Below, piece after piece: positions 3,522-64,000 of a stretch of 64,000 bases of DNA. This DNA is from Orientallactaga sibirica (Eukaryota; Chordata; Mammalia; Rodentia; Dipodidae), in the NCBI GenBank assembly GCA_036365145.1, contig JAEOAD010001901.1, positions 41,926 through 105,925 on the forward strand, given 5' to 3'. The notes beneath the pieces were generated by a model. The model was given only the letters and a program-made list of their open reading frames with translations. It had not been told where the DNA came from and ran no database searches. How positions within the stretch are numbered: the stretch's first letter is position 1; each line of letters starts with the position of its first letter. A program made the translations under genes and the position numbers.

Positions 3522-6065
<2,544 letters not shown>

Positions 6066-16800: not shown

Positions 16801-17567
16801 CCATCAACAGTGAAAATAGTGGATGCTGAATATTCAAGCTTGGCCAGACAGGCCCAATGACTGAACGGGTGCAATAGTGGCGTGTCTACTCTTGGGGTAA
16901 CCAAGTGCTCCATAATTGGACTGAAGGCCCTCTCTATGGGAGGGAATACATACCCGGTACTGAAAAACCTAAGTAAAAGTCTATGGTAGGTGAGGTCATG
17001 AGCCTTGGGGGTATAAGCCTGCTCATGTCTGACTAAATGTATATACTATTCCCGCAAAGCTGCCCTGGGGACACTACACTAAATGTTAATGTCCACATAT
17101 TAACGCTATTCTCACTTCTGGCTAGAGAAGCTTCTCTTTTCAGATGGTGATGACCACTGGGATGACACAAAAGGCAACATAGTGCTGAGAAGAAGGGATG
17201 GAGGAGTGCCTAACACTGAAACACCTCTGTCACATCCTCCAGTGGCTCAGGGACCACTGCGGAAGAGGGGGCGGATAGAATGGAAGAGCCAAAGGAAGGA
17301 TATGACCTCTTACTATGCAGCTGCCCAGACAGAAATTGGCCTCGATATCCATGACCTTGCAGTGCCTAGCAATACCTTTGCAAGACCCTCAAAATAGAAG
17401 AGAAAGATGATGTCATCAAATTAGGAGAGAGACTAATGGAGAAAGGGAGGGGATATGATGGAGACCGGAGTTCTAACGTGGAATGGGGGAGGGGAGGGAA
17501 ATATCAGGTGGGGTTTTTTTGGTATGTAAGATTAAAAGTCAATAAAAATTAAAAAAAAAAAAAAAAG
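13874..17567 (+). mobile_element. Young 5'-truncated L1 (copy A)
   Basis: Begins inside the ORF2 reverse transcriptase region and runs through the ORF2 C-terminus, a ~1.3 kb 3' UTR and a poly(A) tail (17552-17566). It is nearly identical to the corresponding part of copy D (from about 61060). A 13 bp tandem duplication, ccaatgcttctca at 13861-13873 and 13874-13886, sits at the 5' junction. Confidence 0.95.
13877..16230 (+). pseudogene. L1 ORF2 3' two-thirds (copy A)
   Basis: Reverse transcriptase and C-terminal part of L1 ORF2p, which reverse transcribes its own RNA at a nicked genomic target. The first segment (13877-14638) holds the RT palm, including '[11 protein letters not shown]' and an intact FADD catalytic motif near codon 210. 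A 2-base loss near 14610 breaks the frame before thumb sequence resumes at 14739-15542. A second break near 15484 precedes the C-terminal segment 15664-16230, which has the Cys-rich motif (CWHGC…HCWWEC) and ends at a normal-looking stop. The endonuclease is missing through 5' truncation, so the copy is dead. Confidence 0.9.
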
Positions 17568-21474: not shown

Positions 21475-22961
21475 GTTAAGATGGTGGCATAGGAACCATG
21501 CCAAAGCAGCCTAGGGGAGTAAAAGCAAAAACAAAGCCAGCAAAATACACTCTTCTACTAAAAAGTAAGGTGAATAATAAATTATCAACCACAGCAGAGA
21601 AATAGGAGAGATCCAGAGCATCTAGAGTTAACAGAAGCATGCAAAAGCAGCTCCAGCAGCAGCTGCACCAGGTGCACGTGGCCACAGCTGTCAGGCTCGT
21701 CCTAAGCTGCAGGAATAAAGCCACATGAGGGGAATTTACACTCACACCCAGGCTCTGTGCAAACTCAAGAAGTGTGGAAGGTAGGATGGCAGAGAGAATC
21801 AGAATGGCTCATGAGGAAGAGGATCATGAGGGCCAGTGGGAGAACATCAGCCACCATCCATAGCCTCCCCTCTCCCACCGACAGCACAAATGCCAGACAG
21901 CACCAGAGACCTTGGGAAGGGAACTACACAGCACCAAGCACAGACAATCAGAGCAGCCACACACAGACCCAGCCAGCCTACCTGAGACCACAGCATGGTC
22001 ACAGATAACACCAAACATGGTTGTCGTGGGTGACTTCAACTCCCACCCTCACCAATTTACAGGTGATGCCAGCCAAAATAAACAGAGATTCGGCTGGATT
22101 AAATGAGGTCACAGAAAATATGGACCTAACAGATATCTACAGGATATTTCATCCAAATGCTACAGAATACACATTCTTTTCAGCAGTACATGAAACATTC
22201 TCTAAAATAGACCATATGCTAGGATACAAAGCAAATCTTAAGAAATATAGGAAAATTAAAACAATTCCTTGCACTCTATCTGATCACAATTGGATCAAAC
22301 TACAAATCAATAGCATGAAAAGCTATAGAGCATACACAAAATAATGGAAACTAAACAATACACTACTAAATGATGAATGGGTCAATGAAGAAATTAAGAA
22401 GGAAATTAAAAAAATTCATAGAGTCAAGTGATAGGGAGAACACAACATACCAAAACCTTTGGGACACAATGAGGGCAGTCCTAAGAGGGAAATTTATAGT
22501 TTTAAGTTCCTACATATAGAAAATAGAAAGGTTGTAAGCAAACAACTTAATGCTTCACCTTAAGGCCTTGGAAAAAGAAGAACAAAGCAAAACAAAAATC
22601 CATAGATGGGAAGAAATAACAAAGATCAGGGCAGAAATTAATGAACTAGAAACCACAAAAAAATGTTAAGAATCAGTGAAACAAAGAGTTTGTTCTTTGA
22701 AAGGATAAACAAGATTGATAAACCCTTAGCAAATCTGTCCAAAAGAAAGGGAGAAGAGACACAAATTAATAAAAGTAGAGGTGAAAAAGGCACCATCACA
22801 ACATATACCAGGGAAATTCAAAAAATCATAGGGACATACTATAAGAGGATACGTTCCACTAAGTTTGAAAATGCTAAAGAAATGCATGATTTCCTTGATT
22901 TATATGACCTACTTAAATTAAATGAAGATGAGGTTAGTCATGTAAATAGACCAATAACAAG
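21475..22961 (+). mobile_element. L1 piece B1: ancestral-type 5' UTR joined to ORF2
   Basis: It starts with an L1-type 5' end ('aagttaagatggtggcatagg') like that of copy F. Near 21990 it passes directly into the middle of the ORF2 endonuclease, so all of ORF1 and the endonuclease N-terminus are missing. ORF2 fragments continue (22021-22344, 22663-22977) to the linker before the RT, then stop abruptly at about 22961. Confidence 0.8.
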
Positions 22962-24912
22962 TGTGAGACTGTTTTAGATGAAATATCTGACAAAGATTTC
23001 AAAAGAATGATGCTATCTATACTCAAAGAAATGAAAGAAGAAATAAAAAGAAATGAATGGAATCTGAGAAGAAAACAAAGGAATTAAAGAAGAAAACAAA
23101 CTCTTGAAACAGAATACAGAAAAACAGCTTAGCTAAATAAAAAGGTCATTACAGGACATGAATAAGGAAATAGAAATACTTAAGAAAAACCAGGCTGAAA
23201 CCCTAGCTCTGAAGAACACAGTCAGTGAAATAAAAAACTCTGTGGAAAGTCTCGTCAGTAGAATGGATGAAGGAGAGGACAGAATATCTAAACTAGAAGA
23301 CCAGATAACAGACCTATCGCAGTCCAACAAAGAGAAAGACAAGCTAATAGAAAGGTATGAATGGGAACTCCAAGACATGTGGGACACTATGAAAAGATCA
23401 AACATAAGAATTCAAGGTATAGCAGAGGGGGAAGAATTTCAATCCAGAGGCTTAGTAGGTGTTTTCCACAAAATCATAGAAGAAAAATTTCCCCAAATGG
23501 GGAAAGAAATGCCAATATAGATACAAGAAGCATTTAGAACACCAAACAGACAAAACCTAGACAGATCCTCTTCTTGCCATGTTATAATTAAACTACTAAA
23601 CATGTAAACCAAAGAAAATATATTGAAAGCAGTTAGAGAGAAAAAGCAAATGACCTTCAAAGGGAAACCCATCAGGATCACTGAAGATTACTCAACACAA
23701 ACTTTAAAAGCCAACAGGGTCTGGAGTGATATATTCCAAGTTCTGAAAGATAAAAACTGTCAACCGAGATTACTTTATCCTTCAAAGCTATCTATCCAAA
23801 TTTATGGATAAATAAGGACATTCCACAACAAAGACAGGCTAAAGGAATTTATGGCAACTAAGCCAGCTCTACAGAAAATATTTGCAGGAATCATTCATGC
23901 TGAAGAGAAAACAAAACACACACAGCAGGAAATAGGAAAAAATAAACCATACTCAAATAACACTTAAAACAAGTGAGTAAAGGGAAAACCAGGAAGAACT
24001 ACAAAACAAGAAAAATGGAGAGCTCAAATACATATCTTTCAATAATAACTGAATATCAATGGCCTCAATGCCCCAACCAAAAGACATAGACTTGCAGACT
24101 GGATTAAAAAGCAGGATCCTACCATCTGTTGCCTCCAAGAAACTCACCTCTCATTAAAAGATAGAAACCTTCTTAGGGTGAAAGGTTGGGAAAAGTTATT
24201 TCAAGCAAATGGGCCTAGGAAACAAGCAGGGGTTGCTATCCTAATTTCTGACAGGATAGTCTTCAAGCCAACATTAGTGAGGAAAGTTAAAGAAGGTTAC
24301 TTTATACTGATTAAAGGAACACTCCAACAGGAGGACATCACAATCCTAAACATATATGCTCCCAACACAGGGCTCCCAATTTCATCAAACAAACAGTATT
24401 AGACTTAAGGTCAGAGATAACTCATAACACAATAGTAGTGGGTGGCTTCAATACCCTGCTCTCATCACTTGACAGCTCTACCCAACAAAAAATAAACAGA
24501 GAAACATCTGCATTAAATGATATCATGGAACAAATGGACTTAACAGATATATACAAAACATTCCATCCAAATGCTGCAGAATATACATTCTTCTCAGCAG
24601 CATATGGGACATTCTCTAAAATAGACCATATATTGGCCCACAAATCAAATCTTAACAAATACAGGAAAGTTGAAATAATCCCTTGTATGTTATCTGACTA
24701 CAGTGGGATTAAACTGCAAATCAGCAACAAGAAAAACTACAGAGAATACAGAAATTCATGGAGATTAAACAGTACATTACTGAATGATGTATGGGTCATT
24801 GAAGAAATTAAAAAGGAAATCAAGAAATTCATAGAATCAAATGATGATGAGAATGCAACACACCAAAACCTTTGGGACACAAAGAAGACAGTCCTACGAG
24901 GGCAAAAGTATC
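22962..24912 (+). mobile_element. L1 piece B2: ORF1 and endonuclease, young type
   Basis: It starts near the beginning of ORF1 (matching 58560 in copy D). It contains an ORF1 fragment with coiled coil and RRM-like core (23158-23520, then broken) and endonuclease fragments (24178-24402, 24438-24920). It stops within ORF2 at 24912, where an older L1 begins. Confidence 0.8.
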
Positions 24913-26711
24913 CCTCATAATAGATGGTGAAAGAAAAATGTTCCACGGTAAACTCATCTTTACAAATAAATGAACACAAAGCCAAACCTACAGAAAATAC
25001 TTCAGGGAATTCTCCACACAGAAGAAACAAATAACCAATCTCAAGAGCCCCCAAGAAGCAGTCCACATTAACCAAAAAAAAAAAAAAAAAAAAAACCACA
25101 AAGACCACAACTCACCACAATATGGCAGGTATTAAATCAAACCTCAAAGTTATATCTCTGAATATTAATGGCCTTAATTCACTATCAAAAGACATAAGCT
25201 AACAGGGTGGATCAGAAAACTGGACCCTTCAATCTTCTATCTTTTAGAAACCCACCTCACCACTAAAGACAGACACCTCCTCAGAGTGAAAGGGTGGAAA
25301 ATGATATTCCAAGCAAACACAAATAAGAAGAAAGCAGGTGTAGCTATACTCATACCAGATAAAATAGACTTCAAACCGAAAGTAACCAAAAAAGACAAAG
25401 AAGGCCACTTCTTACTTATCAAGGGAACAATCCATCAAGAGGATATCACAATCATCAATACTTATGCACCAAACAAAGGTGAGACACAATTCATAAAGCA
25501 AAATCTACTTGGCAACAAAACAGAAATAAACACCAACACCATCATAGTCAGGGACTTCAATATCCCACTATCAACAATGGATAGATCATCCAAAAAGAAA
25601 ATTAACAGGGAAGTAAGAGAGCTCAACAACACCATAGAGAAAGTAGACCTAACAGATATATACAGAACATTCCACTCAAAATCTACAGATTACACATTCT
25701 TCTTAGCAGCCCACAGAACCTTCTCAAAAATAGATCATGTACTGGGCCACAAACCCTGCCTCCATATTTTCAAGAAAATTGATGTAATTTCCTGCATGAT
25801 ATCAGACCACAATGCTGTAATGCTAGAAATTAAAAACAAAAAGTACACCAGGAATCCCTCTACATCCTGGAAATTGAACAACACACTTTTAAACAATAAA
25901 TGGATTGTGGATGAAATAAAAATTGAAATTGCAAAATTTCTAGAATTCAATGACAACGAGAACATATCATACCAAAACTTATGGGACACAATGAAGGCAG
26001 TCCTTAGGGAAAAAATCATAGCACTAAATGACCTCATAACAAAAACAGAGAGATCCCAAATCAATAACCTAACGATCCACCTGAAGGCATTGGAAAAGCT
26101 AGAAGAAACCAACCCAAAAAGCTCCAGAAGGAAAGAAATAATTAAGATAAGAGCAGAAATTAATGAATTGGAAACTAAGAGGACAATTAAGAAAATTGAT
26201 GAAACAAAGAGCTGGTTCTATGAAGAACTTAACAAGATTGATACACCCCTGTCCAATTTGATCAAGAGAAGAAAAGAAACACTTCAAATCAAAAAAATTA
26301 GAAATGAAAAAGGAGAGATCACAACAGACATGAGTGAAATAGGAAGAGTTATTAGGACTTATTTCAAAAACCTCTCCTCCATAAAACAGGAGACTATGGA
26401 GGAAATGGATGAATTCCTAGACACATACACCTACCAAAGCTAATCCCAGAGCAGATTAATTTCCTAAACAGACCCATCACACCCTTTGAGATATAAGAGG
26501 TAATCAAACACCTCCCCAAAAAGAAGAGTCCAGGACCAGATGATTTCTCAGCAGAATTCTATCAAACCTTCATGGAAGAACTGAAACCAATTCTTCCCAA
26601 ACTGTGCCACACAATAGGAGAACAGGGAGAGATCCCTAACACCTTCTATGAAGCTAGTATTACCCCAATTCCAAAACCAGGCAGGGATCCCACAAGAAAA
26701 GAAAATTATAT
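24913..26711 (+). mobile_element. L1 piece C: divergent older subfamily
   Basis: Begins with ORF1 C-terminal sequence of a different subfamily, then an inter-ORF stretch with an A-run (25077-25098), then ORF2. It ends near 26711, in the sequence preceding the RT core, by a switch to young-type L1. Confidence 0.8.
25126..26711 (+). pseudogene. L1 ORF2 endonuclease, older subfamily (piece C)
   Basis: Apurinic/apyrimidinic-like endonuclease that nicks target DNA for L1 integration. An early in-frame stop lies near 25198. The longest open part (25286-26443, 385 codons) keeps the NTYAPN and SDHN motifs, but the usual GDFN is RDFN. Many residues differ from the young-type endonucleases in this window (e.g. 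…NKGETQFIKQ…), which marks a separate subfamily. The frame breaks before the RT core and no RT catalytic motif of this type is present. Confidence 0.8.
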
Positions 26712-29700
26712 GCCTCTAAGTTTGAAAACCTGAAAGAAATGGATGATTTCCTTGATTCATGTGACCTACCAAAATTAAATCAAGATGAGATAAACCACTT
26801 AAATAGACCTATAACAACAACAGAGATCCAAGCAGTTATAAACAGTCTCCCAACTAATAAAAGCCCAGGCCCAGATGGATTCACTGCTGAATTTTACCAG
26901 ACATTCCTGGAAGATCTAAAAAAATGCTTCTCAAACTTTTCCATAAAAAAGAAAAAGAAGGAATTCTACCAAAATCCTTCTATGAAGCCAGCATCACCTG
27001 ATACCCAAACTGGACAAAGACAGATCACAAAAAGAAAATTACAGACCAATCTCCCTCGTGAACATAAATGCAAAAATTCTCAACGAAATACTGGCAAACA
27101 GAATACAAGAATATATCAGAAAGATTATTCACCCTGACCAAGCAGGCTTAATCCCAGAGAGGAAGGGATGGTTCAACATACACAAATCCATAAATTTAAT
27201 ACACAATATAAATGATCTGAAGGACAAAAATCACATGGTCATCTCAATAGATGCAGAAAAGGCATTTGACAAAATCCAAAACTCCTTCATGGTGAAAGTA
27301 TTACAGAAACTGGGAATAGAAGGAACATATCTCAACATAATAAAACCTATTTATGACAAACCTACAGCCAACATAATAGTAAATGGGGAAAAACTTGAAG
27401 CTTTTCCTTTAAATTCAGGAAAAAGACAAGGGTGTCCACTTTCCCCACTACTATTTAATATCGTACTGGAAGTCTTAACCATAGCAATAAGGCAAGAGAC
27501 ACTCATAAAAGGGATACAAATCAGAAAGGAAGAGATAAAATTATCATTATTTGCGGACTATATGATTCTATAAATAACAGACCCTAAAGATTCTACCAGC
27601 AAACTGTTAGAGCTGATAAACACTTTTAGCAAGGTAGCAGGATACAAAATAAACACACAGAAATGAATAGCTTTTCTATACACTAACAACAAACGTGCAG
27701 AGGATGAAATCAGGGAATCACTCCCAGTCACAATTGCCTCAAAAAAATAACATACCTTGGAATAAACTTAACCAAGGAAGTGAAGGATCTCTACAATGAG
27801 AACTTTAAAAAACTTGAGTTACAAATTGCAGAAGACACAAGGAAATGGATAGACATCCCATGCTCCTGAATTGGAAGAATCAATATTGTAAACATGTCAA
27901 TCTTACCAAAAGCAAATTACACATTTAATGCGATCCCCATTAAAATCCCAATAGCATTCTTCACAAAAATAGAAAAAACAATCCTAAAATTCATCTGGAA
28001 ACACAAAAAACCTCGAATAGCCAAAACAATTTTGCGCAGCAAAAATCAGGCTGGTGGTATTACCATACCCGATTTCAAGATATATTACAAAGCCATAGTA
28101 ATAAAAACAGCATGGTACTGGCACAAGGACCGACAGGTTGATCAGTGGAACAGAATAGAAGACACAGATATTAATCCAGGCAGGTGCAGCCACCAGATTT
28201 TTGACAAAAAAATGCCAAAAATATTCATTGGAGAAAAGATAGCCTCTTCAACAAGTGGTGCTGGGAAAACTGGACATCTGTATGTAATAGGATAAAAACA
28301 GATCCTTGTTTCTCTATGCACAAGAATCAAGTCCAAATGGATCAGGGACCTTAATATCAGACCTGAAACTCTGAACTGCTAGAGGAAAAGGTAGGGGAAA
28401 CCCTTCAACATATTGGCATAGGCAAGGACTTTCTGAATATAACCCCAATTGCTTAGGGAATAAAACCACTAATCAACCACTGGGACCTCATGAAATTACA
28501 AAGCTTTTGTACAGCAAAGGACACTGTGAATAGAGTAAAGAGACAACCTTAAGAATGGGAGAAAATCTTTGCCAGCTATACATCTGACAGAAGATTACTA
28601 TCCAGAATATACAAATAACTCAAAAAACAGAATAATAAGAAATCAAACAACCCACTTAAAAAATGGGCTATGGAACTAAATAGTTCTCAGAAGAAGAAAT
28701 ACAGATGGCATATAAACATCTAAAAAAGTGTTCCACATCCTTAGTCATCAGGGAAATGCAAATTAAAACCACTTTGAGATTACATTTCACTCCTGTCAGA
28801 ATGGCTATCATCGAGAAAACAAATGACAGTAAGTGTTGGCATGGATGTGGAAAAACAGGAACACTTCTACACCATTGGTGGGAATGTAATCTGGTCCAGC
28901 CATTGTGGAAATCCAAGTGGAGGTTCTTGAGACAGCTAAAAATAGATTTACCATATGATACAGCTCTAGCACTCCTAGGCATATATCTGAAGTACTCTTT
29001 TCACTACCTTAGATATACTTGCACAACCATGTTTATTGCTGCTATATTCACAATAGCTAGGAAATGGAACCAGCCTAGATGTCCCTCCACAGATGAATGG
29101 ATAATAAAGATGTGGTACATTTACACAATGAAGTCTATTTAGCAGTAAAGAAAAATGAAATTATGAAATTTACAGGGAAATGGATGGATCTGGAAAGGAT
29201 TTTACTAAGTGTGGTAACCCAGGGCCAGAAAGCCAAATGTCACATGTTCTCTCTCATATGTGGATCCTAGCTAGAAATGCATTTACTTGTGTGTGAATTG
29301 GAACCAAAAATCAGTACCAGAAGCCAGTAAGCTGGTAAATGCTGTAAGGGAGGGATGAAAGGTAAGGACTTAAATGTATGGTATTGCACATATGTAAGTA
29401 GAAGAACAGATTACAGGGAGGAGAATGGCCTATGCAAGGCCATGGGAAGAGAATGTATAAAAGAAGGGAAGGGGAGGGTCAATCAAAATTCAAACTACTC
29501 TGAATAAGACTTATGTAAACCTACTTTTTTGAATAATGGCACATCCAGAAGATATAGACTGTTAGAAGAAAATTTTCAGTGCCTGGGATGGGATACCTTC
29601 CAGTGAGTTGTTGGCCAAGGAGGTCCCAGTAGCCTCCAAAACATTAAAGGCTATTGTCAAAGCCCTTGGTTTCCCTTGAGAAACAGATGGGTAAGACCCT

Positions 29701-30600
29701 ATTGCTGAAGACATCTCTTGCCTGAGAGGCAAGGTCTCTGAGAAAGCAAGCTGGTCCTGAGCAGAAAACATTCTCCCTGTAGACCATCCAACTGAAAGCT
29801 GTAAAAACTGCACTGCATGCAGTGTATGGGAGACAGAAGTCATTAGCAGTGAAAACAGTGGACACTGGAAAATTCAAGTTTGGCCATACAGGCCCCATGA
29901 CTGGACGGGTGCAATAGTGGCATGTCTACTCTTGGGGTAACCAACTGCTCCATAATTGAACTGAAGGCCCTCTCGATGGGAGGGAATACATGCCTGGTAC
30001 TGAAAAAACTAAGCCAAAGTCTATGGCAGTGGAGGTCATGAGCCTTAGGGATATAAAGCCTGCTGTTGTCTGTCTAAATGTATATATTATTCCCACCAAG
30101 CTGCCCTGAAAGCACTACACTTAATGTTCATATTCACATAGTAATGCTACTCTCATCTCTCGTTAGATAAGCTTCTCTTTTCAGATGGTGATGACCAGTG
30201 GGATGACCCAAAAGGCAACATAGTGCTGAGAAGAAGGGATGGAGGAGTGCCCAGCACTGAAACATCTCTGTCAAACCCTCCAAGGCTCAGGGCCCATTGC
30301 GGAAGAGGGGGTGGATAGAATGTAAGAGCCAAAGGAAGGGTACAACTCCTTACAATGCAACTGTCCAGATGGAAATTGGCCTTGATATCCATGACCTTGC
30401 AGTGCCTATCAATACCTTTGCAAGACCCTCATAATAGAAGAAAAAGATTATGACATCAAATTAAAAAAGAGACTAATGGAGAGAGGGAGGGTATATGATG
30501 GAGAGTAGAGTTCTAAAGGGGAATGGGGGAGGGGATGGAAATATCATGTGTTTTTTTATGTAAGTATAGAAGTTGTTAATAAAAAATAAAAAAGTACAAA
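26712..30600 (+). mobile_element. L1 piece B3: RT to 3' UTR, young type
   Basis: Starts at 'ctaagtttgaaaacctg', homologous to 60850 in copy D. It runs through RT, ORF2 C-terminus (28705-29142) and 3' UTR to an A-rich end near 30560-30600. It is more diverged from D than copy A is. Confidence 0.85.
27058..29142 (+). pseudogene. L1 ORF2 RT and C-terminus, inactive (piece B3)
   Basis: The RT segment 27058-27573 is open but the catalytic FADD is changed to FADY near 27553-27562 and is followed at once by a stop. This is direct loss of a metal-binding aspartate. Further fragments are 27894-28295 (thumb) and 28705-29142 (C-terminus with the cysteine motif CWHGC…), separated by frameshifts. Confidence 0.85.
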
Positions 30601-33659: not shown

Positions 33660-34735
33660 CATGTGTGTGTTTTGCTTTCTCTTCAGCATGAAGAATTTCT
33701 TCAAGTATTTTCTGTAAAGCTGGCTTAGTTGTGATAAATTCCTTTAGCCTGTTTTTGTTGTGGAATGTCCTTATTTATCCTTCAATTTGGATACATATCT
33801 TTACAGATTACAGTAATCTTGGTTAACATTTGTTACCTTTCAGAACATCACTCCAAGCCCTTCTGGATTTTAATGTTTGTGTTGAGTAATCTGCTGTTAT
33901 CCAGATGGGCTTGCCTTTGTAAGTGACTTGCCTTTTCTCTCTAACTTCTTTCAATATATTTTCTTTGGTCTGCATGTTCAGTAGTTTAATTATAACATGG
34001 CAAGGAGAGATTCTTTCCAGGTTTTGTGTGTTTGATGTTCAAACATCTTCCTGTAAAGCCAGACATGGTGGTGCATGCCTTTAATCCCAGCACTCTGAAG
34101 GCAGTGGTAGGAGGATCACCACGAGTTCAAGGTTACCCTGAGACTACATAGTTAATTCCAGGTCAGCCTGGACCAGAGTAGGCCCTCCCTTGAAAAAAAA
34201 CCTTCCTGTATCTGCATTGGCAATTCTTTTCCAATGTGGGGAAATTTTTCTCCTATGATTTTTGTTGAAAATGCCTACTATACCTTTGCCTTTGGAGTGA
34301 AATTCTTCTCCTATTATAGCCTAAATTCTTATGTTTGATCTTTTCATAGTGCCCCAAGGATCTTGAAATTCCCATTCATGCCTTCCTATTAGCTTGTTTT
34401 ACTCTTTGTTGGACTGTATTAGATCTGCCTCCTGGTCTTCTAGTTTAGATATTCTGTTCTCTCCTTCATGCATTCTACTATGAGATTTTCCACAGAGTTT
34501 TTTAATTTGACTTACTGTATTTTCTGTGCTGTTATTTTTGTCTTGTTTTTCTTCAGTATTTTTATTTATTTACTCATGTCTTTTAATGACCTCCTTATAT
34601 CACTAAGCTGGTTTTCTGTGTTTTCTTTCAGGTATTTGTTTTCCTCTTTAATCCCTTTGTTTTCATCTTTGATTCCTTTGATTTCTTCTTTTATTTCTAT
34701 GAGTATAGATAAAATCATTTTTTGAAATCTTTGTC
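33660..34735 (-). pseudogene. L1 ORF1 remnant (copy F)
   Basis: Reverse complement of ORF1: the coiled-coil N-terminal part at 34480-34735, the RRM-like core near 34220-34400 and the C-terminal domain near 33680-33990. It is broken by stops and by a forward B1 (34058-34196). ORF1p is the RNA-binding chaperone of the L1 particle; this copy cannot make it. Confidence 0.75.
34058..34198 (+). mobile_element. B1-like SINE nested in L1 ORF1
   Basis: Forward B1 from 'aagccagacatggtggtgc' to a short A-run. 'cttcctgta' occurs just before and just after it, consistent with a target-site duplication. Confidence 0.9.
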
Positions 34736-36096
34736 AAGCATTTCATCTAAAACAATCGCATTGTGGGTCATTTCTGATGGATTTATAATTTTTGGTGGGA
34801 TTTTATTGTCTTGATTATTTGTGTTTCTTGTTTTATAATATAGTGACTTTTGCATCCCGAGTTGATTTGTTGCTTTTGTTTTGTAATTATGTGTAGTGTA
34901 CTTGGATGTGGAAAATCAACTTTATATACCTATAGGATAGGGGTTTAAGGTGCTCAGGGTAGCTCTTGTACTCCAAAGCAACCAAAGATGTAATCCTAGG
35001 TGTTGAGTTTGCCTGCTATTCAAGTATTCTAGTGGGCTGGATGCAACAATTTACTGGCAAATTCTAAACTTCAACTGAGCAATATACACATTCAATGAAA
35101 ACCAGCACAGAGTATGCCAGTGTGGGGATTAAAACAAACAGATAACCTTATAAAGCTAAAATCCCTAAGGCTGTGTGTTGCTCTACACCCCTAATCCTGT
35201 CAGCTGGGAGGTTGAAATTTCTGTTCTGAAACGGGTTTCAGGTCAGGCTGGATTTGAATCAGACCCTGCTCTCAATTATGACAGAAGGAAAATGCTAATA
35301 ATTCTGAAAGCATCAAAGGCAACTATAATTAACCACAAATCCAGCTTAATTGAGAGTAAGTAACCCATAACCTGCCCTGACAAAGAAAGAGAGATTAGCA
35401 CTTCCAGTGCAGGCCTATATACCTGCTTTTTTGTCACTCTGCCTTGTTATTTTGGGGAGGCTTCCAATCTCACCAATGCTGAGTGCCCACCTTGATCCCT
35501 CTGTTGTGTGCTATCTATCTGCTGTTCTGATAAGTTGTGCTGGATGCCTTGCCACTGGGGGCTGAATGAGTTCTCCAGAGGTTCACAGTTCTAATGTTTG
35601 GGTGATGGGAGAGCACAGAAATCCTGGAGTTGTACTGAAACTGCTCAGCTGGTCCCACCTGTATTGCACTCAACAGCTCCTCAGCTGGTCTCTGCTATCT
35701 CTCCTTCAGGTTTCTTGACTTTGCAATAAGGCTGATGAGGTTGGATGGACAATCCTCTTGTTTGGTCTCTGCTTCTGCACCTCAGTGCTGGTCCTGCCTG
35801 CAGATCCATGCAGATCATGGCCACAAGCACCTTGGCAGGGTTCTGGCCAGTGTTCTCCTTTCTGGTAGATATTTGTCCTTCCTGCTTCTCTGCTGTGGCT
35901 GAAAATAACCTATTCACCTTCACTCTTTGGAAGAAGAGTGTATTTTACTGCGGTTTTGCTTAAATCCCTCCCTAGACTGGTTTGGCATGACTCCTATGCC
36001 ACCATCTTACCTGGAAGAGTAATGCTGTCATTTTTGTGTTCTGAAAGATTTCACAGGGTCTGATGAAGGAACCATTTTCCTCCTATATTTTTATGG

Positions 36097-46364: not shown

Positions 46365-46395
46365 GATGCTGATGGAACATTCTGGGATAAGAACC
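46365..46395 (+). repeat. Left 31 bp direct repeat (flanks L1 copy E)
   Basis: Exact match to 51366-51396. It begins 'gatgctgatggaacattctg' and ends 'agaacc'. Interpreted as a target-site duplication, long for L1 but not unheard of. Confidence 0.8.
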
Positions 46396-49300
46396 AAAAT
46401 AACTAAAAAGTGAGATACATAGTAAACTTTCAAGCCCAGCAGAAGTAGGAGAGAGTTTCACTTCACCTGAGCTGTTCAACTGTTCACAGAGGCGAGAGAA
46501 TTTTCCCTATTTTGTGAGGAAGAGGACTTATTGCCACTCAAATCAGCAGTTACAGACTGACACCTCAATTGGGCAGAAGATCAAACCCATTCAAAAGGTA
46601 ATTTGGTTTTATTCATTTCACAAGCTGACACTTTTCAGAAATCTTAGCCTCCCATGACATTTGTGGGCTTATCTTTGAACTGTCTGACTTTGGACCTGTT
46701 TTTATTTCATTGAAGGGTACATTGTTGAAAATTTTTGGATCTTGACTGTATTCTGTTCCATTCACCCCACTTGATAATCTCATAGCAGGCAAGGGTCACT
46801 TCTGTGATTACTTTGAGAGCCTTAAGACCACTTAACACCTTAAACTCCTTGAAGACATATAATATCAGATTGTCTTTGATATTTAGAAAACCCAAGCATT
46901 AAATTAATTCAAGATGCAAAGATCTTACATTACATTACAAGAAACACAAAACATCCAGACAATATTCCACCAAAAGTATTAATATATCTGAAATGACCTT
47001 CAGTCTGACCAGGACCTGAGAAAACAAAAGAATGATTATAATTATGGATGGAAAGGGTTCAAAGACCTGAAAGAAAACCAATTTAATGAAATAAGGAGGT
47101 CAATACTAGACATAAATAGGAAATAGAAAGAATAAAGAAAAGCTCAGAAATGCTGCTGAACACAGTGTGAAATTAAAACCTCTGTTTCTCAGTAGAATGG
47201 ATAGGATATGAAGCTAGAAGACCAAGTATGAATGACAAAATAATAGGAAGGTATGAATGGGAATTACAGGAATTAGGGACACTCAAACTTAGGGATAGAA
47301 GGGAAGAATTTCACTCCATGTTTTCAACAAAATCATAGAGGAAAACTTTTGATGCCAATGCAGCTACATGAAGCCTTTTCAAAATTTCAGACATCAACTA
47401 CCAAACATTATTCAGCTGTGACATCTGCCCATGATTACTCAACACAAACTGGCCAGAAGGGCCTGGAGTAATGTATTCAAGTTCTGAAAGATAAAAACTG
47501 TCAACCTGAGATTACTTTTCCGCAAAACTATCTATCCAAATAGATTCCAGGACATTCCACAACAAAGACAGGCTAAAGGAATTTTTGGCAACTAAACCAG
47601 CTCTACAGAAAATACTTTCATTCATGCTGCAAAGACACACATGAATTTAGGAAAAAATAAACCATACTCAAATAACAGTTAAAACTAGAGGGAAAACAGA
47701 AAAACTAAAAAATAAGAAGAATTGCAGAATAAACACATATAGTCAATAATAACTCTTTATCAATGGTCTCAATGCCCCTTGACTTGCAGACTGGATTGCA
47801 GGCTACCATTGTTTGAAACTCATCTCTCAATAAAAAATAGAAACCTTCATTTCAAGCAAATGCTAGAAAACAGGCAGGGGTTGCTATTTTAATTTCTGAC
47901 AAGATAGACTTCAATCCAACATTTGTGAGGAAAAATAAAGAAGGTCACTTTTACTGATTTCCAACAGGAGGACATTCAATCCTGAACATATATTTTGTGT
48001 TGGGGCTCCCAATTTCATCAAACAAACACTATTGAATTAAGGTCAGAGATATCTTCTGACTTCAATACCCCACTCTCATCACTTGTCTACCCAGCAAAAA
48101 ATGACATCTGCATTAAATGATTGGAACTGGACCTAACAGATATTTACAGAACATTCCATCCAAATGCTGCAGAGCAGCACAGGACATTTTCTAAAATAGC
48201 ATATTATTCTTTACAGGAAAATTGAAATAATTTTTTTGCAAATCAGCAACAAGAAAATATACAGAGCATACAGATGGAGTAAAAACATGATTGAATGATG
48301 TATGGGTCATTGAAGAAATTAAAAAGGAAATTTTAGAATCAAATGATGATTTTACCAAAAGGGCAGTCCTTTAGCCCTAAGTGAAAAATAAGGCCTTGAA
48401 CAAGGCAAACCTCGGGAAGAAATAATGTTGAAATTAATGAAATGATCAATGAAACAAAGAGTTGGTTCTTTGAAAGGATGTTTGACAAATAGCAAATCTG
48501 ACCAAAAGAAAGAGAGAAGAGAAAAAAATTGATAAAATTAGAGATTGCAACATCAGATACCAAAGAAATTCAGAAAATCATACGGACATACTTTAAGAAT
48601 ATATATTGCTCTAAGTTTGAAAACCTGAAAGAAATGGATGAATTCCTTGATTCATATCTACCAAAATTTCAAGAAGAGATAAACCATTTAAATAGAACTA
48701 TGATTCAAGCAGTTATGCCCCAGATGGATTCACTCTGAATTTTTCCCTGGAAGATCTAACACCAATGCTTCTCAAACTTTTCCATAAAATAGAAAAGGAA
48801 CCCTTTGGCATCACCCTGATACCCAAAGACAAAGACAGATCAAAAAAGAAAATTATGACCAATCTCCCTCATGAACATTTTACTGAATACAAGAATTTAT
48901 CAGAAAGATTATTCAGAGGCTTTATCCCAGAGATGCTGGGATGTTCAACAAAAATCCATAAATTAATCATATAAATGGTCTGAAGGGACAAAAATCATAT
49001 GATCATCTCAATAGATGCAGAAAAGGCATTTGACAAAATCCAACACCCCTTCATGGTGAAAGTATTTTGGAGCATATCTCAACATAATAAAAGCTATTTA
49101 TGACAAACCTGAAAAGCTTTGCTTTTCCTCTAAATTCAGGAACAAGACTCTGGTTTCACTTTCCCACTACTATTTAATATAGTACTGGAAGTCTTATTGA
49201 AATAAGGCAAGAGACACTCATAAAGGGGATACAAATTGGAAGGAAGAGATCAAATTATCATTGATATTATACCTGACCCTTCTTACCTGCAAACTGTTAG

Positions 49301-51365
49301 AGCTGATAAACACTTTGTGTAGCAGGATCTAAACACACAGAAATCAGTAGCCTTTCTATATACTAACAAGTGCAGAGGATGAAATCAGGAATCTCAGCCC
49401 CATTCACAAATTTGGAATAAAAAACCAAGGAAGTGAAGGATCTGATGAGAATGAGACAAATTATGAAGACACAATGAAATTTGACATCCCATGCTCCTGG
49501 ATTGGAAGAATCAATATTGTGAAAATCAATCTTACCAAAAGCTCTCTATACTGATCCCTATTAAAATCCCAATATGGGAAATATGGAAACACAAAAAACC
49601 TTGAATAGCCAAAACAATTTTTGCGAAACAAAAATTGAGGAGTTATATTAAAAATAGTTCTACTGACAGGTAGAAATGGAACAGAAAGAAGACCCAAATA
49701 TTAATCCAAGCAGCTACAGCCACCTGAGCCAAAAATATTATTGGAGAAAAGATAGTCTCTTTAACATTCGGATGTGATAAACATAGATCCTTTGTCTCCA
49801 AATGGATCAGGGACCTTGAATCAGACCTGAAACTCTGAACCTGCTAGAGGGTGAAACCCTTCAACATTTTTTGAATAAAATCACTAATCAACCAATGGGA
49901 CCTTATGAAATTACAAAATTTTGTACAGCAAAGGACACTGTGGTAGAGCAAAAAGATTCTTTGCCAGATCTGACAGAGGATTAATATCCACAAAGAAATA
50001 AGAATTAGTTAAAAAATGGGCTTGAACTAAATAGAGAATTCAAGAAGATCAGATGGCATATAAACATTCTGAAAAAATGTCCACATCCTTAGCCATCAGG
50101 GAAATGCAAATTAAAACCACTTTGAGATTCCATTTCATTGTCAGAATGGCTTCCATCAAGAAAACAAAGGACAAAAGTGTTTTTACACTTTTGGGAAATA
50201 ACCTAGTCCAACCATTGTGGAAATCAGTGTGTTTTTGAGACAGCTAGAAATAGATTTTGCACTCCTAGGCATATATCCAGAAGACTCTTTCACTTCCTTA
50301 GAGATACTTAAATCTATTCAAATGCTGAAATGGAAGCAAGATGTCCCACCATTTGAATGGATAAATACATTTACACAATGGAGTTCTACTCAGCAGTAAA
50401 GAAAAAAGGGAAATGGATGGATCTGGAAAGATTAATAAGTGAGGCAGGCTTCACATGTTCTCTCTCATGTTAAATTTGAACTGGAACCAAAAATTGGTGC
50501 CAGAAACCAGTAAGCTGGTAAAAATGAAAGGGAAGGACTGAAATGGTATTGCACAGTGGAAGGACTGATTACAAGGAGGGAATTAACCAAGGCCATGGGA
50601 GAGAATGCCATTTCAATCTAATTTCAAAAGATTGTGAATTAAAACTACACATCTAGAAGCTGTAGACTGTTACTAGAAAATTTTCAGTACCTGGGATGGG
50701 ATACCTTCCAGTGAGTTGTTTCAGTGCCTCCAAAACATTAAAGGCTTTTGCCAAATAAGACCCTATTTGAAGACATGCCTGAGAGGCAAGGTCAACAAGC
50801 TGGTGCTGAGCAGAAAACCTTCTCCTGTAGACCAGCCAACTGAAAGCAGCTGCACTGCATGCAGAGTATGGGAGACAGAAGTCATCAGCAGTGAAAACAG
50901 TGGACAGCTGAATATTCAAATTTGGCCAGACAGGCCCAAAGACTGAACAGGTGCAAGTAACTTCAACTTTTGGACTAAAACGGGAAATTACCTGTTGAAA
51001 AAAAAGTAAAGTCAATGTTAAGAGTTTGTTTGGGGGTTAAACATGCCCTTATCTAAACAGAACAGAAAATACTACACTTAATCAAATATTAAAATATGAA
51101 TGACCACTGGGATGATCCAAAAGGCAACATTGTGAGAAGAAGGGATGGAGAAGTGCCCAGCACTGTCACATCAAGGCTCAGGGATCATTGAAAAAATTGG
51201 CCTTGATATCCATGACCTTGAAAAAAGGAACAATACCTTCATACAGAAGGGAAAGAGGATGACATCACATTAAAAAAAAGATCTAAAAGGGGAAATGATG
51301 GACAGGGAGTTCTAAAGGGGAAGGGGAGGGGAGGAAAAATACGCACCTTTAGTATGTGATGTTTT
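46396..51365 (+). mobile_element. L1 with pervasive microdeletions (copy E)
   Basis: Colinear with copy D from its 5' UTR to the 3' UTR, but shortened throughout. Landmark spacing: 46900 to 48758 is 1,858 bases against about 2,586 in D; 48758 to 51345 is 2,587 against about 3,676 in A. Both halves have thus lost about 28-30% through many small gaps of a few to ~25 bases, often with short T-runs at the scar. The region 46396-46700 is less clearly L1. No proper poly(A) tail is seen before the right repeat. Confidence 0.85.
47040..50400 (+). pseudogene. L1 ORF1 and ORF2 relics (copy E)
   Basis: ORF1 sequence is recognisable at about 47060-47650 and ORF2 from 47750 to 50400, but no frame longer than about 70 codons remains. 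The RT motif region near 49260 is lost (the FADD codons fall in a deletion). The cysteine motif near 50180-50200 is also reduced. No protein function is possible. Confidence 0.85.
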
Positions 51366-51396
51366 GATGCTGATGGAACATTCTGGGATAAGAACC
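51366..51396 (+). repeat. Right 31 bp direct repeat (flanks L1 copy E)
   Basis: Exact partner of 46365-46395. The sequences beyond the two copies differ (ccaaaataac against cctcagctaa). Confidence 0.8.
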
Positions 51397-57240: not shown

Positions 57241-58500
57241 AGTTATCCGCGGGCTCCCCATCCGCTGAGGGCTTCCCAGCCGCGAACTCCCCATCCGCGG
57301 GCTCCCCCAGGCAGGCTCCTGCGGCTCCGCCCACGCCGAGGCTCCCAGCCGCGAACTCCCCATCCGCGGGCTCCCCATCCGCAGGCTCCCGAGGCTCTGC
57401 TCCACGCCGAGGCTCCCCAGCCTCAGACTCCCCATCCGCGGGCTCCCGCGGCTCCGCTCCACGCCGAGGATCCCCAGCCGCGGACTCCCCATCCACGGGC
57501 TCCACATCCGCAGGCTCCCAGCGGCTTCCCTCCACCCTGAGGGCACCCCAGCAGCTCCAACCTCGGTTCAAAGCTGCCACCCAGATCAGCTAAGCCCTGC
57601 TGAGCTTCCACTGCAAACGCCGCCCGAACAAACAAAAAAAAAGGGGGACTTTTCAACCTCATCAGTCTCCCCACAGAGCCCAGAAATCAAAGAAAAATCT
57701 GCGGAGCTACTGAAAGAGACATACACGGTGAGCTGCTGCAGGCTTCCTGAACTCGCCCATCCCCAATCATCAGTTCCCAGGGTGTCGGTAGAATCGAGCA
57801 CCTAGTGGCAGATCTGATCCACATCGCCAACACCGGACCCAGCATACCTGACCCAAACTCCACAGCCCAGGGAACGAGGTGGGCCCCCAGCATTGGTGAG
57901 TTTAAAAGCCACACCAAAAGATAACAAAGGCCTGCACTGGAAGTGATAACCACTCTTTCCAGGTCAAGGCAGGGTATGTATTACATATTTGTGGGTGGCT
58001 TTACCATTTTCAAATAAGCTGAATATGAGGGGTTGAATATTGCTATCTGTACAACTTATAGATTTAAAGGGCCTTTACCTTTTGCTTCAGTTATTATTGA
58101 GGACAGGGTCTGATTCCCAAGCAGACAGGACTAAGGGCATGGACCATCGCATGCCCTGAGGGATTTGACCCTATAGGACTGTTTGGCTCAATTCTCACAC
58201 TTATATACTCTGTGTTCATGTTAATTGAATGTGTATTTTGCTTTGTTGAAGTTTAGAACTTGCCTCTAAATTGTTCCACTAGTCCACTACAATACTTACT
58301 TAACAAGCAAACTCAACAGTTAGGAGTACTTCTGAGGTTGGACTTGGGTACAAGTGCTACACTTGACACCTTAAACTCATATCCTGAAATTATATAAAGG
58401 TGGATCACAACACCTAAGAACACTGAAGATAAATAGGAAACCTAAGCATCAAATCAATCCAGGATGCATAAGTCACTACATTATAATACAAGAAACACAA
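57241..58500 (+). promoter_or_regulatory. L1 5' UTR with CpG-rich tandem promoter (copy D)
   Basis: The first ~320 bases (57241-57560) are GC-rich and built of ~15 bp units near 'ccatccgcgggctcc', arranged in larger blocks marked by 'cacgccgag' at 57332, 57403 and 57460 (spacing 71 and 57). The remainder (57600-58440) is clearly related to the 5' UTR of copy F, for example 'cagcattggtgag' and 'aggcctgcactggaagtg'. L1 5' UTRs carry an internal RNA polymerase II promoter; CpG-rich monomers are a usual form. No transcription factor site is asserted. Confidence 0.75.
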
Positions 58501-58652
58501 AGAATCAAGACAATGCAATCCCACCAAAAATTACAAATCCATCAGAAGGGTTCTCCAATGAGACTCTTTTAGATGAAATTCTGACAAAGATTTCAAGGGA
58601 ATGATGTTATCTATGCTCAAAGAAATGAAAGAAGAAATGAAAGCAATCCGCT

Positions 58653-59561
58653 GAAGAAAACAAAGGAATTAGAGAAGAAAACAAACTGTTGAAGGAGATT
58701 ACAGAGAAACAGTTTAATGAAATAAAAAGGTCATTAGAAGACATGAATAAGGAAATAGAACTACTGAAGAAAAACCAGGCTGAAATCCTGGCCCTGAAGA
58801 ACACAGCCAGTGAAATAAAACACTCAGTGGAAAGTCTCACTAGTAGAATGGATGAAGGAGAGGACAGAATATCCAAGCTAGAAGACGAGGTGGCAGATCT
58901 ATCACAGTCCAACAAAGAGAAAGACAAGCTAATAGAAAGGTATGAATGGGAACTCCAAGACATGAGGGACACTATGAAAAGATCAAACATAAGAATTCAA
59001 GGTATAGCAGAAGGGGAAGAATTTCAATCCAGAGGCTTAGTAGGTGTTTTCCATAAAATCATAGAAGAAAATTTTCCCCAAATTGGGAAAGAAATGCCAA
59101 TGCAGATACAAGAAGCATTTAGAACACCAAACAGACAAAACCTAGAAAGAACCTCTTCTCGCCATGTTATAATTAAACTACTAAATACACAAACCAAAGA
59201 AAGTATACTGAAAGCAGTTAGAGAGAAAAAGCAAATGACATTTAAGGGGAAACCCATCAGGGTCACAGCAGATTACTCAACACAAACCCTAAAAGCCAGG
59301 AGGGCCTGGAGTGATGTATTCCAAGTTCTGAAAGATAAAAACTGTCAACCAAGATTACTTTATCCTGCAAAGCTTTCTATCCAAATTGATGGAGAAATAA
59401 GGACATTCCACAACAAAGACAGGCTAAAGGAATTTATGACAACTAAGCCAGCTCTACAGAAAATACTTGCAGGAATCATTCATGCTGAAGAAAAAGCAAA
59501 ACACACACAGCAGGAAATAGGAAAAAAGAAATCATATTCAACTGTTAGAACAAGTGAGTAA
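58653..59561 (+). CDS. L1 ORF1 (RNA-binding chaperone), N-terminus frameshifted
   Basis: ORF1p forms trimers that coat L1 RNA in the ribonucleoprotein particle. The open frame 58653-59561 includes a charged coiled coil (about the first 100 residues, e.g. KLEDEVADLSQSNKEKDKL), an RRM-like core starting at 'NIRIQGIAEGEE', and a C-terminal domain (…AWSDVFQVLKDKNCQPRLLYPAK…). The probable natural start lies upstream: ATG codons at 58601 and 58604 are in another frame and meet a TGA at 58652-58654. One extra base near 58652 separates the two frames. The frame shown by simple ORF finding opens at a TTG (58689), which is not a credible start. ORF2 follows with a short gap after the stop. Confidence 0.85.
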   Translation, partial: EENKGIREENKLLKEITEKQFNEIKRSLEDMNKEIELLKKNQAEILALKNTASEIKHSVESLTSRMDEGEDRISKLEDEVADLSQSNKEKDKLIERYEWELQDMRDTMKRSNIRIQGIAEGEEFQSRGLVGVFHKIIEENFPQIGKEMPMQIQEAFRTPNRQNLERTSSRHVIIKLLNTQTKESILKAVREKKQMTFKGKPIRVTADYSTQTLKARRAWSDVFQVLKDKNCQPRLLYPAKLSIQIDGEIRTFHNKDRLKEFMTTKPALQKILAGIIHAEEKAKHTQQEIGKKKSYSTVRTSE

Positions 59562-59595
59562 AAAGAAAACCAGGAAGAACTACAAAACAAGAAAA

Positions 59596-62500
59596 ATGGA
59601 CAGATCAAATACATATCTTTCAATAATAACTCTTAATATCAATGGCCTCAATGCCCCAATCAAAAGACATAGACTTGCAGACTGGATTAAAAAGCAGGAT
59701 CCTACCATCTGTTGCCTTCAGGAAACTCACATCCGAATAAAAGATAGAAACATTCTTAGGGTGAAAGGCTGGAAAAAGATATATCAAGCAAATGGACCCA
59801 GAAAACAAGCAGGGGTTGCCATTCTAATTTCTGACAGGATAGACTTCAAACCAACATTAGTGAGGAGAGATAAAGCAGGTCACTTTATACTGATTAAAGG
59901 AACACTCCAACAGGAGGATATCACAATCCTAAACATTTATGCTCCCAACACGGGGGCCCCAATTACATCAAACAAACACTATCGGACTTAAGGTCAGAAA
60001 TAACACCTAACACAATAGTAGTGGGTGACTTCAATACCCGCTCTCATCACTTGACAGGTCTACCCAACAAAAAATAAACAGAGAAACAACTGCATTAAAT
60101 GATATCATGGAACAAATGGACCTAACAGATATATACAGAATATTCCATCCAAATACTGCAGAATATACATTCTTCTCAGCAGCACATGGGTCATTCTCTA
60201 AAATAGACCATATGATAGGACACAAATCAAATCTCAACAAATACAGGAAAATTGAAATAATCCCTTGTATGCTATCTGACCACAATGGGATTAAACTGCA
60301 AATCAACAACAAGAAAACTACAGAGCATACAGAAATTCATGGAGACTAAACAGTACATTATTGAATGACGCATGGGTCATTGAAGAAATTAAGAAGGAAA
60401 TCAAGAAATTCATAGAATCAAATGATGATGAGAATACAACATATCAAAACCTGTGGGACACAATGAAGGCAGTCCTACGAGGGAAATTTATAGCTCTAAG
60501 TGCCTATATTAAGAAACTAGAGAGTTCACAACTAAACAATTTAATGCTTCACCTTAAGGCCTTGGAAAGAGAAGAACAAGGCAAACCAAAAATCAGTAGA
60601 CGGGAAGAAATAATAAAGGTTAGGGCAGAAATTAATGAAATGGAAACCAAAAAAACAATCAAAAAAATCAATGAAACAAAGAGTTGGTTCTTTGAAAGGA
60701 TTAACAAGATTGACAAACCTTAGCAAATCTGACCAAAAGAAAGAGAGAAGAGACAAAAATTGATAAAATTAGAGATGAAAAAGGCAACATCACAACAGAT
60801 ACCAAAGAAATTCAGAAAATCATACGGACATACTTTAAGAATATATATGCCTCTAAGTTTGAAAACCTGAAAGAAATGGATGATTTCCTTGATTTATATG
60901 ACCTACCAAAATTAAATCAAGATGAGATAAACCATTTAAATAGACCTATAACAACCACAGAGATCCAAGCAGTCATAAAAAGTCTCCCAATTAAAAAAGC
61001 CCAGGCCCAGATGGATTCACTACTGAATTTTACCAGACATTCCTGGAAGATCTAACACCAATGCTTCTCAAACTTTTCCATAAAATAGAAGAGGAAGGAA
61101 TTCTACCAAAATCCTTCTATGAAGCCAGCATCACCCTGATACCCAAACCGGACAAAGACAGATTAAAAAAGAAAACTATAGACCAATCTCCCTCATGAAC
61201 ATAGATGCAAAAATTCTCAACAAAATACTGGCAAACAGAATACAAGAATATATCAGAAAGATTATTCACCCTGACCAAGTAGGCTTTATCCCAGAGATGC
61301 AGGGATGGTTCAACATACGCAAATCCATAAATGTAATACACCATATAAATGGTCTGAAGGACAAAAATCACATGGTCATCTCAATAGATGCAGAAAAGGC
61401 ATTTGACAAAATCCAACACCCCTTCATGGTGAAAGTACTACAGAAACTTGGAATAGAAGGTACATATCTCAACATAATAAAAGCTATTTATGACAAACCT
61501 ACAGCCAACATAATACTTAATGGGGAAAAACTTGAAGCTTTTCCTCTAAATTCAGGAACAAGGCAAGGGTGTCCACTTTCTCCACTATTATTTAATATAG
61601 TATTGGAAGTCTTAGCCATAGCAATAAGGCAAGAGGCACTCATAAAGGGATACAAATCGGAAAGGAAGAGGTCAAATTATCATTATTTGCAGATGATATG
61701 ATTCTATACATAACAGATCCTAAGGACTCTACCAGCAAATTATTAGAGCTGATAAACACTTTTAGCAATGTAGCAGGATACAAAATAAACACACAGAAAT
61801 CAGTAGCTTTTCTATACACTAACAACAAACATGCAGAGGATGAAATCAGGGAATCTCTCCCATTCACAATTGCCTCAAAAAAATAAAATACCTTGGAATA
61901 AACTTAACCAAGGAAGTGAAGGATCTCTACAATGAGAACTATAAAAAACTCGAGCGACAAATTGCAGAAGACACAAGGAAATGGAAAGACATTCCATGCT
62001 CCTGGATTGGAAGAATCAATATAGTGAAAATGTCAATCTTACCAAAAGCAATCTACACATTTAATGCGATCCCCATTAAAATCCCAATAGCATTCTTCAC
62101 AGAAATAGAAAAACAATACTAAAATTCATCTGGAAACACAAAAAACCTCGAATAGCTAAAAACAATTTTGCATAACAAAAATCAGGCAGGTGGTATAACC
62201 ATACCCGATTTTAAGTTATACTACAAAGCCATAGTAACAAAAACAGCATGGTACTGGCACAAGGACAGACAGGTAGATCAATGGAACAGAATAGAAGACC
62301 CAAATATTAATCCAGATAGCTACAGCTACCTGATTTTTGACAAAAACGCCAAAAATACTCATTGGAGAAAAGATAGTCTCTTTAACAAGTGGTGCTGGGA
62401 AAATTGGACATCTGTTTGTAAAAGGATAAACATAGATCCTTGTCTCTCTCCTTGCACAAGAATCAAGTCCAAATGGATCAGGGACCTTAATATCAGACCT

Positions 62501-63413
62501 GAAACTCTGAAAATGCTAGAGGAAAAAGTAGGGGAAACTCTTCAACATATTGGAATAGGCAAGGACTTTCTGAATATAACTCCAATTGCTCAGAGAATAA
62601 AAGCACTAATCAACCACTGGGACCTTATAAAATTACAAAGCTTTTTGTACAGCAAAGGACACTGTGAATAGAGCAAAAAGACAACCTACAGAATGGGAGA
62701 AAATCTTTTGCCAGTTATTCAACTGACAGAGGATTAATATCCAGAATATACAAAGAACTCAAAAAACAGAATAACAAGAATTCAAACAACCCAGTTAAAA
62801 AAATGGGCTACGGAACTAAATAGAGAATTCACGGAAGATGAAATACAGATGGCATATAAACATCTAAAAATGTTCTACATCCTTAGCCATCAGGGAAATG
62901 CAAATTAAAACCACTTTGAGATTCCATATCACTCCTGTCAGAATGGCTGCCATCAAGAAAACAAATGACAATAAGTGTTGGCGTGGATGCGGAAAAACAG
63001 GAACACTTCTACACTGTTGGTGGGAATGTAAGCTGGTCCAGCCACTGTGGAAATCAGTGTGGAGGTTCTTGAGACAGCTAGAAATAGATTTACCATATGA
63101 TCCAGCTATAGCACTCCTAGGCATATATCCAGAGGACTCTTCTCACTTCCTTAGAGATACTTGCAAAACCATGTTTATTGCTGCTCTATTCACAATAGCT
63201 AAGAAATGGAAGCAGCCTAGATGTCCGTCCACAGATGAGTGGATAATAAAGTTGTGGTACATTTACACAATGGAGTTCTATTCAGCAGTAAAGAAAAATG
63301 AAATTATGAAATTTGCAGGGAAATGGATGGATCTGGAAAGGATTATACTTAGTGAGGTAACCCAGGCTCAGAAAGCCAAACGTCACATGTTCTCTCTCAT
63401 ATGTGGATCCTAG
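59596..63413 (+). pseudogene. L1 ORF2 (endonuclease and RT), many 1-base breaks
   Basis: ORF2p nicks target DNA and reverse transcribes L1 RNA. The likely start is the ATG at 59596, about 35 bases after the ORF1 stop. Endonuclease: NINGLN, QETH and NIYAPN in the first segment (to about 59988), GDFN region near 60020, SDHN near 60280. RT: 61195-61701, with [11 protein letters not shown]; the FADD codons near 61690 straddle a frame break. Thumb and C-terminus: 61916-62122, 62168-62671 and 62898-63413, with the cysteine motif CWRGC…HCWWEC and a normal terminal stop. Breaks near 59970, 60037, 60312, 60721, 60990, 61160, 61645, 61870, 62108, 62160, 62640 and 62706 are nearly all single-base changes, mostly in homopolymers. 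Taken literally it is dead; see findings. Confidence 0.85.
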
Positions 63414-64000
63414 CTACCAATGTATAGACTTGGGTATGAACTGAAACCAAAAAGAGGTACCAGAAACCAGTAAGGGGGTAAAAGGCTATAAGGGAGGGAA
63501 GAAAGGGAAGGACTTAAGTGTATGGTAATACACATATGTAAGTAGAAGAACTGAGTTCAGGGAGGGAATGGCCTAAGCGAGGCCATGGGAAGAGAATGCA
63601 TACAAAAAGGGCAGGGGAGGGACAATCTAAACTCAAGATATTATCAATAAGACATATGTAAAACTACGTTTTTGATTAAGGTCACGTCTAGAAGATGTAG
63701 ACTGTTACTAGAAAATTTTCAGTACCTGGGATGGAACTCCTTCCAGTGAGATGTTGGCCAAGGAGGTCCCGGTAGCCTCCAAAACATTAAGGCTTTGCCA
63801 AAGCCCTTGGTTTCCCTAGAGAAATAGATAGTAAGACCCTATTGCTGAAGACATCTCATGCCTGAGAGGCAAGGACACTGAGAAAGCAAGCTGGTGCTGA
63901 GCAGAAAACCTTCTCCTGTAGACCAGCCAACTGAAAGCTGAAAAAGCTGCACTGCACGCAGCGTATGGGGAGACAGAAGCCATCAACAGTGAAAATAGTG
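63414..64000 (+). other. L1 3' UTR (copy D), cut by window edge
   Basis: Matches the copy A 3' UTR from 16231 onward, including 'ctgagagctgaaagctg'-type purine/pyrimidine blocks and the 'gtttccctagagaaatag' stretch. No open frame of interest. Confidence 0.85.

Follow-up and report, generated by a model that had tools for sequence, protein, structure and literature searches.

A densely gapped L1 copy with T-rich scars in Orientallactaga sibirica as a possible product of aberrant reverse transcription

The 64,000-nucleotide stretch of Orientallactaga sibirica DNA analysed here (contig JAEOAD010001901.1, positions 41,926–105,925; hereafter the window) contains an L1 copy, copy E at 46396–51365, enclosed by two identical 31-bp direct repeats. 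In the part analysed, copy E lacks 32% of the bases of copy D, the L1 copy used as the reference, and the scars of its ordered gaps carry additions rich in T on the L1 sense strand. We consider it moderately probable that copy E arose in a single round of reverse transcription of sense-strand L1 RNA in which first-strand synthesis was aberrant. The parts of the locus, as mapped by alignment and by a pair hidden Markov model (pair-HMM), are given below; UTR and ORF denote untranslated region and open reading frame.

46365..46395, forward strand: left 31-bp flanking repeat (target site duplication), 31/31 identical to 51366–51396
46396..46680, forward strand: 5′ end of E, possibly a gapped L1 5′UTR with weak homology (HMM against D 57915–58140)
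46680..47440, forward strand: gapped L1 5′ region and ORF1-homologous part of E (HMM and alignment)
47441..50821, forward strand: core of E as analysed, gapped ORF2 and start of the 3′UTR, with about 189 deletion junctions and T-rich additions (pair-HMM against D)
50822..51365, forward strand: gapped L1 3′UTR with a G-rich tract (comparison with copy C)
51325..51365, forward strand: 3′ terminus of E without poly(A), ATGTTTT abutting the repeat (HMM z 3.8 against copy A 17480–17540)
51366..51396, forward strand: right 31-bp flanking repeat, 31/31 identical to the left copy
58380..64000, forward strand: reference stretch of copy D, which continues beyond the window end (alignments and ORF domain matches)

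Copy E is collinear with copy D in the same orientation from the 5′ region to the 3′UTR. Of six ORFs scanned in D, three matched known domains, namely the RBD-like and dsRBD-like domains of L1 ORF1, Exo_endo_phos and RVT_1. The L1 ORF1 Pfam domains were matched by the ORF at 58689–59561, and D 61195–61698 matched four PDB sequences named LINE-1 ORF2 protein (E 9.5e-81 to 8.8e-80); the reading frames of D are themselves split into short ORFs. Judged from its sequence, copy E is derived from an L1 element.

Because gap placement in a simple alignment was uncertain, a three-state pair-HMM was trained on 52 chunks and 40 alignments were sampled for D 59279–63912 (4,634 bases) against E 47441–50821 (3,381 bases). 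All evidence on the gaps comes from this one locus and one main reference, and the counts are alignment-dependent. Each sample held on average 188.8 deletion junctions, of which 111.5 carried inserted bases and 77.3 did not, together with 14.2 insertions without deletion, and refits with other insert compositions gave 186–192 junctions. The deletions had a mean length of 7.9, a median of 5 and a maximum of 48 bases, and the upper size of ~25 bases given in an earlier sequence-only reading of this stretch was too low. The retained blocks averaged 16.6 bases with a coefficient of variation of 0.93, which is near random breakage, and the placement of the ~36 blocks per sample shorter than 5 bases is uncertain. 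In the simple alignment of D 60837–64000, 144 gaps delete 886 bases out of 3,164 in D, and a further 21 events insert 37 bases, of which 17 are T.

The gaps were found to be spread along the element much as the sequence-only reading had described, with deleted fractions of 0.22–0.39 and 18.3 to 23.1 junctions in each of nine successive 515-base bins. The number of junctions per bin was not significantly more regular than in simulations, 28 of 150 being as even or more. The net lengths modulo 3 (0, 1 and 2) were 60.5, 74.7 and 68.0, showing no preference for preserving the frame. No 12-mer recurred within 200 bases in E, and thus no backward jump was seen at that resolution. BLAST gap openings against D numbered 18 in 2,962 columns for copy A, 24 in 3,178 for copy C and 141 in 3,343 for copy E, and no second gapped copy like E was met among the L1 matches within the window, where the family of gapped but still mobile copies raised by the sequence-only reading thus finds no support. 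A weak 53–66-base periodicity of the deletions at 47441–50821 stood above all 150 simulations in a band picked after viewing the spectrum; 4 of the 150 had a peak at least as high as the tallest one in the 20–100-base range.

The deletions themselves ignore base identity, the deleted fractions in the pair-HMM being 0.319 for A, 0.325 for C, 0.326 for G and 0.312 for T. The base composition of what remains, from D 58980–64000 to E 47301–50909, showed a retention of 0.684 for A, 0.690 for C, 0.684 for G and 0.835 for T. In 2,000 random-deletion simulations the T-retention difference was 0.000 ± 0.015 with a largest value of 0.058, as against 0.150 observed, and therefore random deletion cannot produce the T excess of E. 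Between the same two stretches the TTT count rose from 66 to 108 despite the shrinkage. Copies A and C, compared with D 61056–64000 and D 60837–64000, respectively, kept all four bases within 3%. The ~210 bases per sample that the HMM assigned as inserted at deletions were 141 T, 31 G, 25 A and 13 C on the L1 sense strand. With refitting, a free T-rich insert model was ahead of a fixed background by 41 log units and of its A-rich mirror by 59, and with the other parameters fixed the margins were 47.5 and 89 with the same sign, so that the additions are strand-specific. Even the fixed-background insert model gave 36–38% T in the inserts. By base counts the T excess seemed higher toward the 5′ side (up to 32 vs 9 per 500 D bases); the inserted T assigned by the HMM ranged from 11.0 to 24.7 per bin with no clear slope. 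The T-runs that the sequence-only reading had pointed out at scars were located at 48331–48334, 48350–48353 and the following places, and T also stands at the 3′ terminus of E.

48231..48237, forward strand: T7 run at a scar where 5 E bases replace 35 D bases (alignment)
48878..48881, forward strand: T4 run at a scar (alignment)
49867..49872, forward strand: T6 run at a scar where 5 E bases replace 46 D bases (alignment)

The bases bordering the gaps were also biased. Compared with 80 simulated copies, which held 155 junctions as against 189 in E, the base left of a gap was T in 0.339 of cases (0.224 expected, z 5.1), and the base right of it was G in 0.280 (0.183 expected, z 4.0) with A depleted (z −3.1). 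In a matched set of 150 simulations (189 junctions), the biases were z 4.6 for T and 4.1 for G at junctions with inserts, and 2.7 and 1.1 at those without. Microhomology at insert-free junctions was not above chance (0.67 vs 0.80 simulated, z −1.2), and microhomology slippage was rejected on this ground. The sequence-only reading had proposed that E be aligned to D and its gap sizes, microhomology and scar bases be tabulated, and the outcome was ~189 junctions with T-rich scar bases and microhomology at chance level. Skipping of RNA hairpins was also rejected, as predicted pairing failed to separate deleted from kept bases (z 0.6); gap edges were slightly more paired in the predicted RNA (z −2.2 and −1.9), which is not taken as evidence.

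The flanking repeats and the ends of E bear on how it was inserted. The repeats were confirmed as a perfect duplication, and we agree with the sequence-only reading that they mark an insertion. The 3′ sequence of E, ...GTATGTGATGTTTT, runs straight into the right repeat, and poly(A) is absent, no run of A within the final 60 bases exceeding 5; copy A, past the stretch matching this terminus, continues into poly(A). E 50986–51365 scored 199 against copy C, the maximum in 30 shuffles being 30. At the other end, clear homology to D begins only at about 46680, the HMM giving z 9.7 for E 46680–46850 and 12.9 for 46850–47080. Further upstream, z was 2.6 for E 46396–46560 against D 57915–58140 and a non-significant 0.4 for 46560–46700, with 0.2 and −0.9 in two flank controls, and in local alignments of the 5′ end with five upstream stretches the scores ranged from 23.5 to 42, shuffled sequence scoring up to 30. 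At the edge of the left repeat the primer strand has the sequence CATC/CC, and the TTTT/AA site of the L1 endonuclease is not present there. Tailless retropseudogenes call for 2–18 bases of complementarity between the 3′ end of the RNA and the target; E contains a GATG that might base-pair with the CATC of the primer, but TTTT separates it from the repeat. The 31-bp duplication exceeds the peak of 14–16 bp given for target site duplications of full-length L1 in human and chimpanzee in the consulted part of PMC2912911.

Copy E thus resembles an ordinary L1 insertion in its sense-order L1 sequence from the 5′ region to the 3′UTR and its flanking direct repeat, and differs from it in lacking poly(A) and a TTTT/AA-like site and in having ~190 internal deletion junctions with T additions. 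It shares a flanking duplication, 3′ truncation and the lack of an A tail with the tailless retropseudogenes of PMC5322556, alongside which tailless L1 copies were counted. As far as the available part of that paper goes, a tailless L1 with a duplication is already known and the missing tail of E alone is not new. However, the consensus target of the tailless retropseudogenes is TT/WAAAA-like, from which the CATC/CC site of E departs, and internal gaps like those of E are not described for them in the same part. No L1 copy like E stood among the listed titles and abstract openings from the open-access holdings searched with the chosen terms.

The age of E was examined from substitutions. E has 48 private substitutions at the 1,913 sites (2.5%) that are the same in copies A, C and D, while C differs at 103 of the 1,968 sites (5.2%) shared by A, D and E; for D and for A, each set against the other pair, the figure is about 1%. 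At the 150 ungapped E sites where C departs from a base common to A and D, E has the A/D base at 103, the C base at 40 and another at 7. With private substitutions at 2.5%, the chance that the 62 repeat bases stay unchanged is ~0.21. E is therefore moderately young, and its identical repeats need no special explanation. The sequence-only reading had seen a clash between intact repeats and the age of E, which does not stand. The real contrast is that between gaps and substitutions. The same reading had held slow decay to be inadequate for the gaps, and here it was right: copy C is about twice as diverged as E, yet has 24 gap openings against 141, and slow neutral decay is rejected on this ground.

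In the origin that we favour, synthesis of the first cDNA strand would run from right to left in window coordinates, and at intervals of about 25 template bases the enzyme would quit the template and then resume up to 48 bases further along, preferably at a template U. Before resuming it would often extend the cDNA without a template by one base or a few, mostly A, which reads as T on the sense strand. The template would probably be broken or obstructed, with its pieces kept in order in the L1 ribonucleoprotein, and the cDNA would be inserted at a staggered break, duplicating 31 bp, without poly(A) priming at a standard L1 site. We infer that the errors arose on the first strand and in a single event, as well as which enzyme was at work and in what condition its template was. 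The proposal in the sequence-only reading that the template was already gapped when copied would then hold in part, as the gaps fit best as made by the copying and not as present in the template beforehand.

Human L1 ORF2p is reported to show both non-templated addition and template jumping (PMC10830420, in the part available). The non-LTR reverse transcriptases of PMC8857657 and PMC10830420, as far as the consulted parts describe them, are like E in A-rich additions to the cDNA, if the first strand was the faulty one in E, and in needing little pairing while favouring a complementary landing base; the jumps described there occur at template ends, whereas in E they would be repeated inside one element. 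The scars of E, with addition of A, a landing preference for U, no further homology and only forward movement, would fit this chemistry repeated many times. Serial end-to-end template jumping by the L1 reverse transcriptase across ~200 ordered pieces of its own degraded RNA is a tentative and on balance doubtful form of this origin; if true, an L1 particle can hold broken RNA in register and still yield a genomic insertion. If the gapped sequence is confirmed by reads, E would be a natural fossil of an extreme failure of reverse transcription with a completed insertion, and its ~190 junctions would reveal the habits of the L1 reverse transcriptase in the base it adds, the place it lands and the use it can make of broken RNA. 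Base-blind gaps with sense-strand T and no poly(A) would then provide a signature for scanning genomes.

Several observations weigh against this origin. Overhangs of at least 3 A were non-productive for jumping (Pimentel et al, PMC8857657), and in the consulted parts of PMC8857657 and PMC10830420 the enzyme reaches the end of a template before it jumps, and lands on the 3′ end of a second one. An L1 insertion with a comparable number of jumps was not found in the open-access literature searched, and ~200 strictly ordered jumps demand a defect of template or enzyme that is only inferred. From D to E 47301–50909, GGG fell from 54 to 28, below the other triplets counted, for which we have no explanation, nor have we one for the weak periodicity of the deletions. 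Some older minus-strand copies exceed D in TTT (15 to 25; 0 to 6) with little or no length loss; the one at 34202–35208, of unreduced length, has A at 1.06, T at 1.05 and G at 0.89 of D, with 25 TTT against 15. The case also depends on one locus, one main reference and alignment-dependent counts, and the preference at the landing site would be explained just as well if that base had been the 3′ end of a trimmed RNA piece.

The last point leads to the alternative that L1 RNA was cut, trimmed and U-tailed by a TUT4/7-like activity and its ordered pieces copied end to end, the T scars being copied U-tails. It would account for the T-rich scars, the preference for U as the last kept base and the ATGTTTT 3′ end without poly(A), and reports that TUT4/7 uridylate L1 mRNA 3′ ends (PMC11014359, in the part available) keep it alive. 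Since about 190 cuts with the pieces in order are demanding and bases other than T make up about a third of the additions, we regard it as unlikely. It is improbable that E was instead copied from an older, already gapped source element, in which case a family with the same gaps would exist. The gap pattern itself is compatible with such a source, and the missing poly(A) does not exclude it because the human genome is reported to hold L1 copies that have flanking duplications and no tail (PMC5322556, in the part consulted). However, E lacks a TTTT/AA-like site as well as the tail, it has no sister among the L1 matches in the window, and the first gapped copy would have needed the same process anyway.

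The intact repeats around a gapped body could also suggest that a DNA-level process, such as repeated end joining, Pol theta-like repair or another deletion-prone process, hit only the inserted L1. This is the least probable of the alternatives, because microhomology is not in excess, the additions favour one strand, the gaps span the whole stretch, copies A and C are normal and there is no known reason for halting exactly at the insertion ends. An assembly or sequencing error has in its favour that a single assembly was used, but we hold it to be improbable. It would not predict T additions on one strand at gaps as long as 48 bases, nor blocks with an identity of about 97.5% where A, C and D are conserved, nor gap limits that coincide with exact 31-bp repeats.

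Elsewhere, the window contains several L1 copies and B1-like SINEs, the latter presumably jerboa-like. The region 21995–30600 holds nested or rearranged L1 pieces, in which 21995–22960 and 25086–26710 adjoin the L1 stretches 22964–24905 and 26699–30600; these two stretches are about 90% identical to other copies. A tandem array at 3635–6152 has an 84-base register, which we assume is that expected for C2H2 zinc-finger repeats, and a long diverged tandem-repeat array with many registers and copies about 70% alike occupies 9721–13391.
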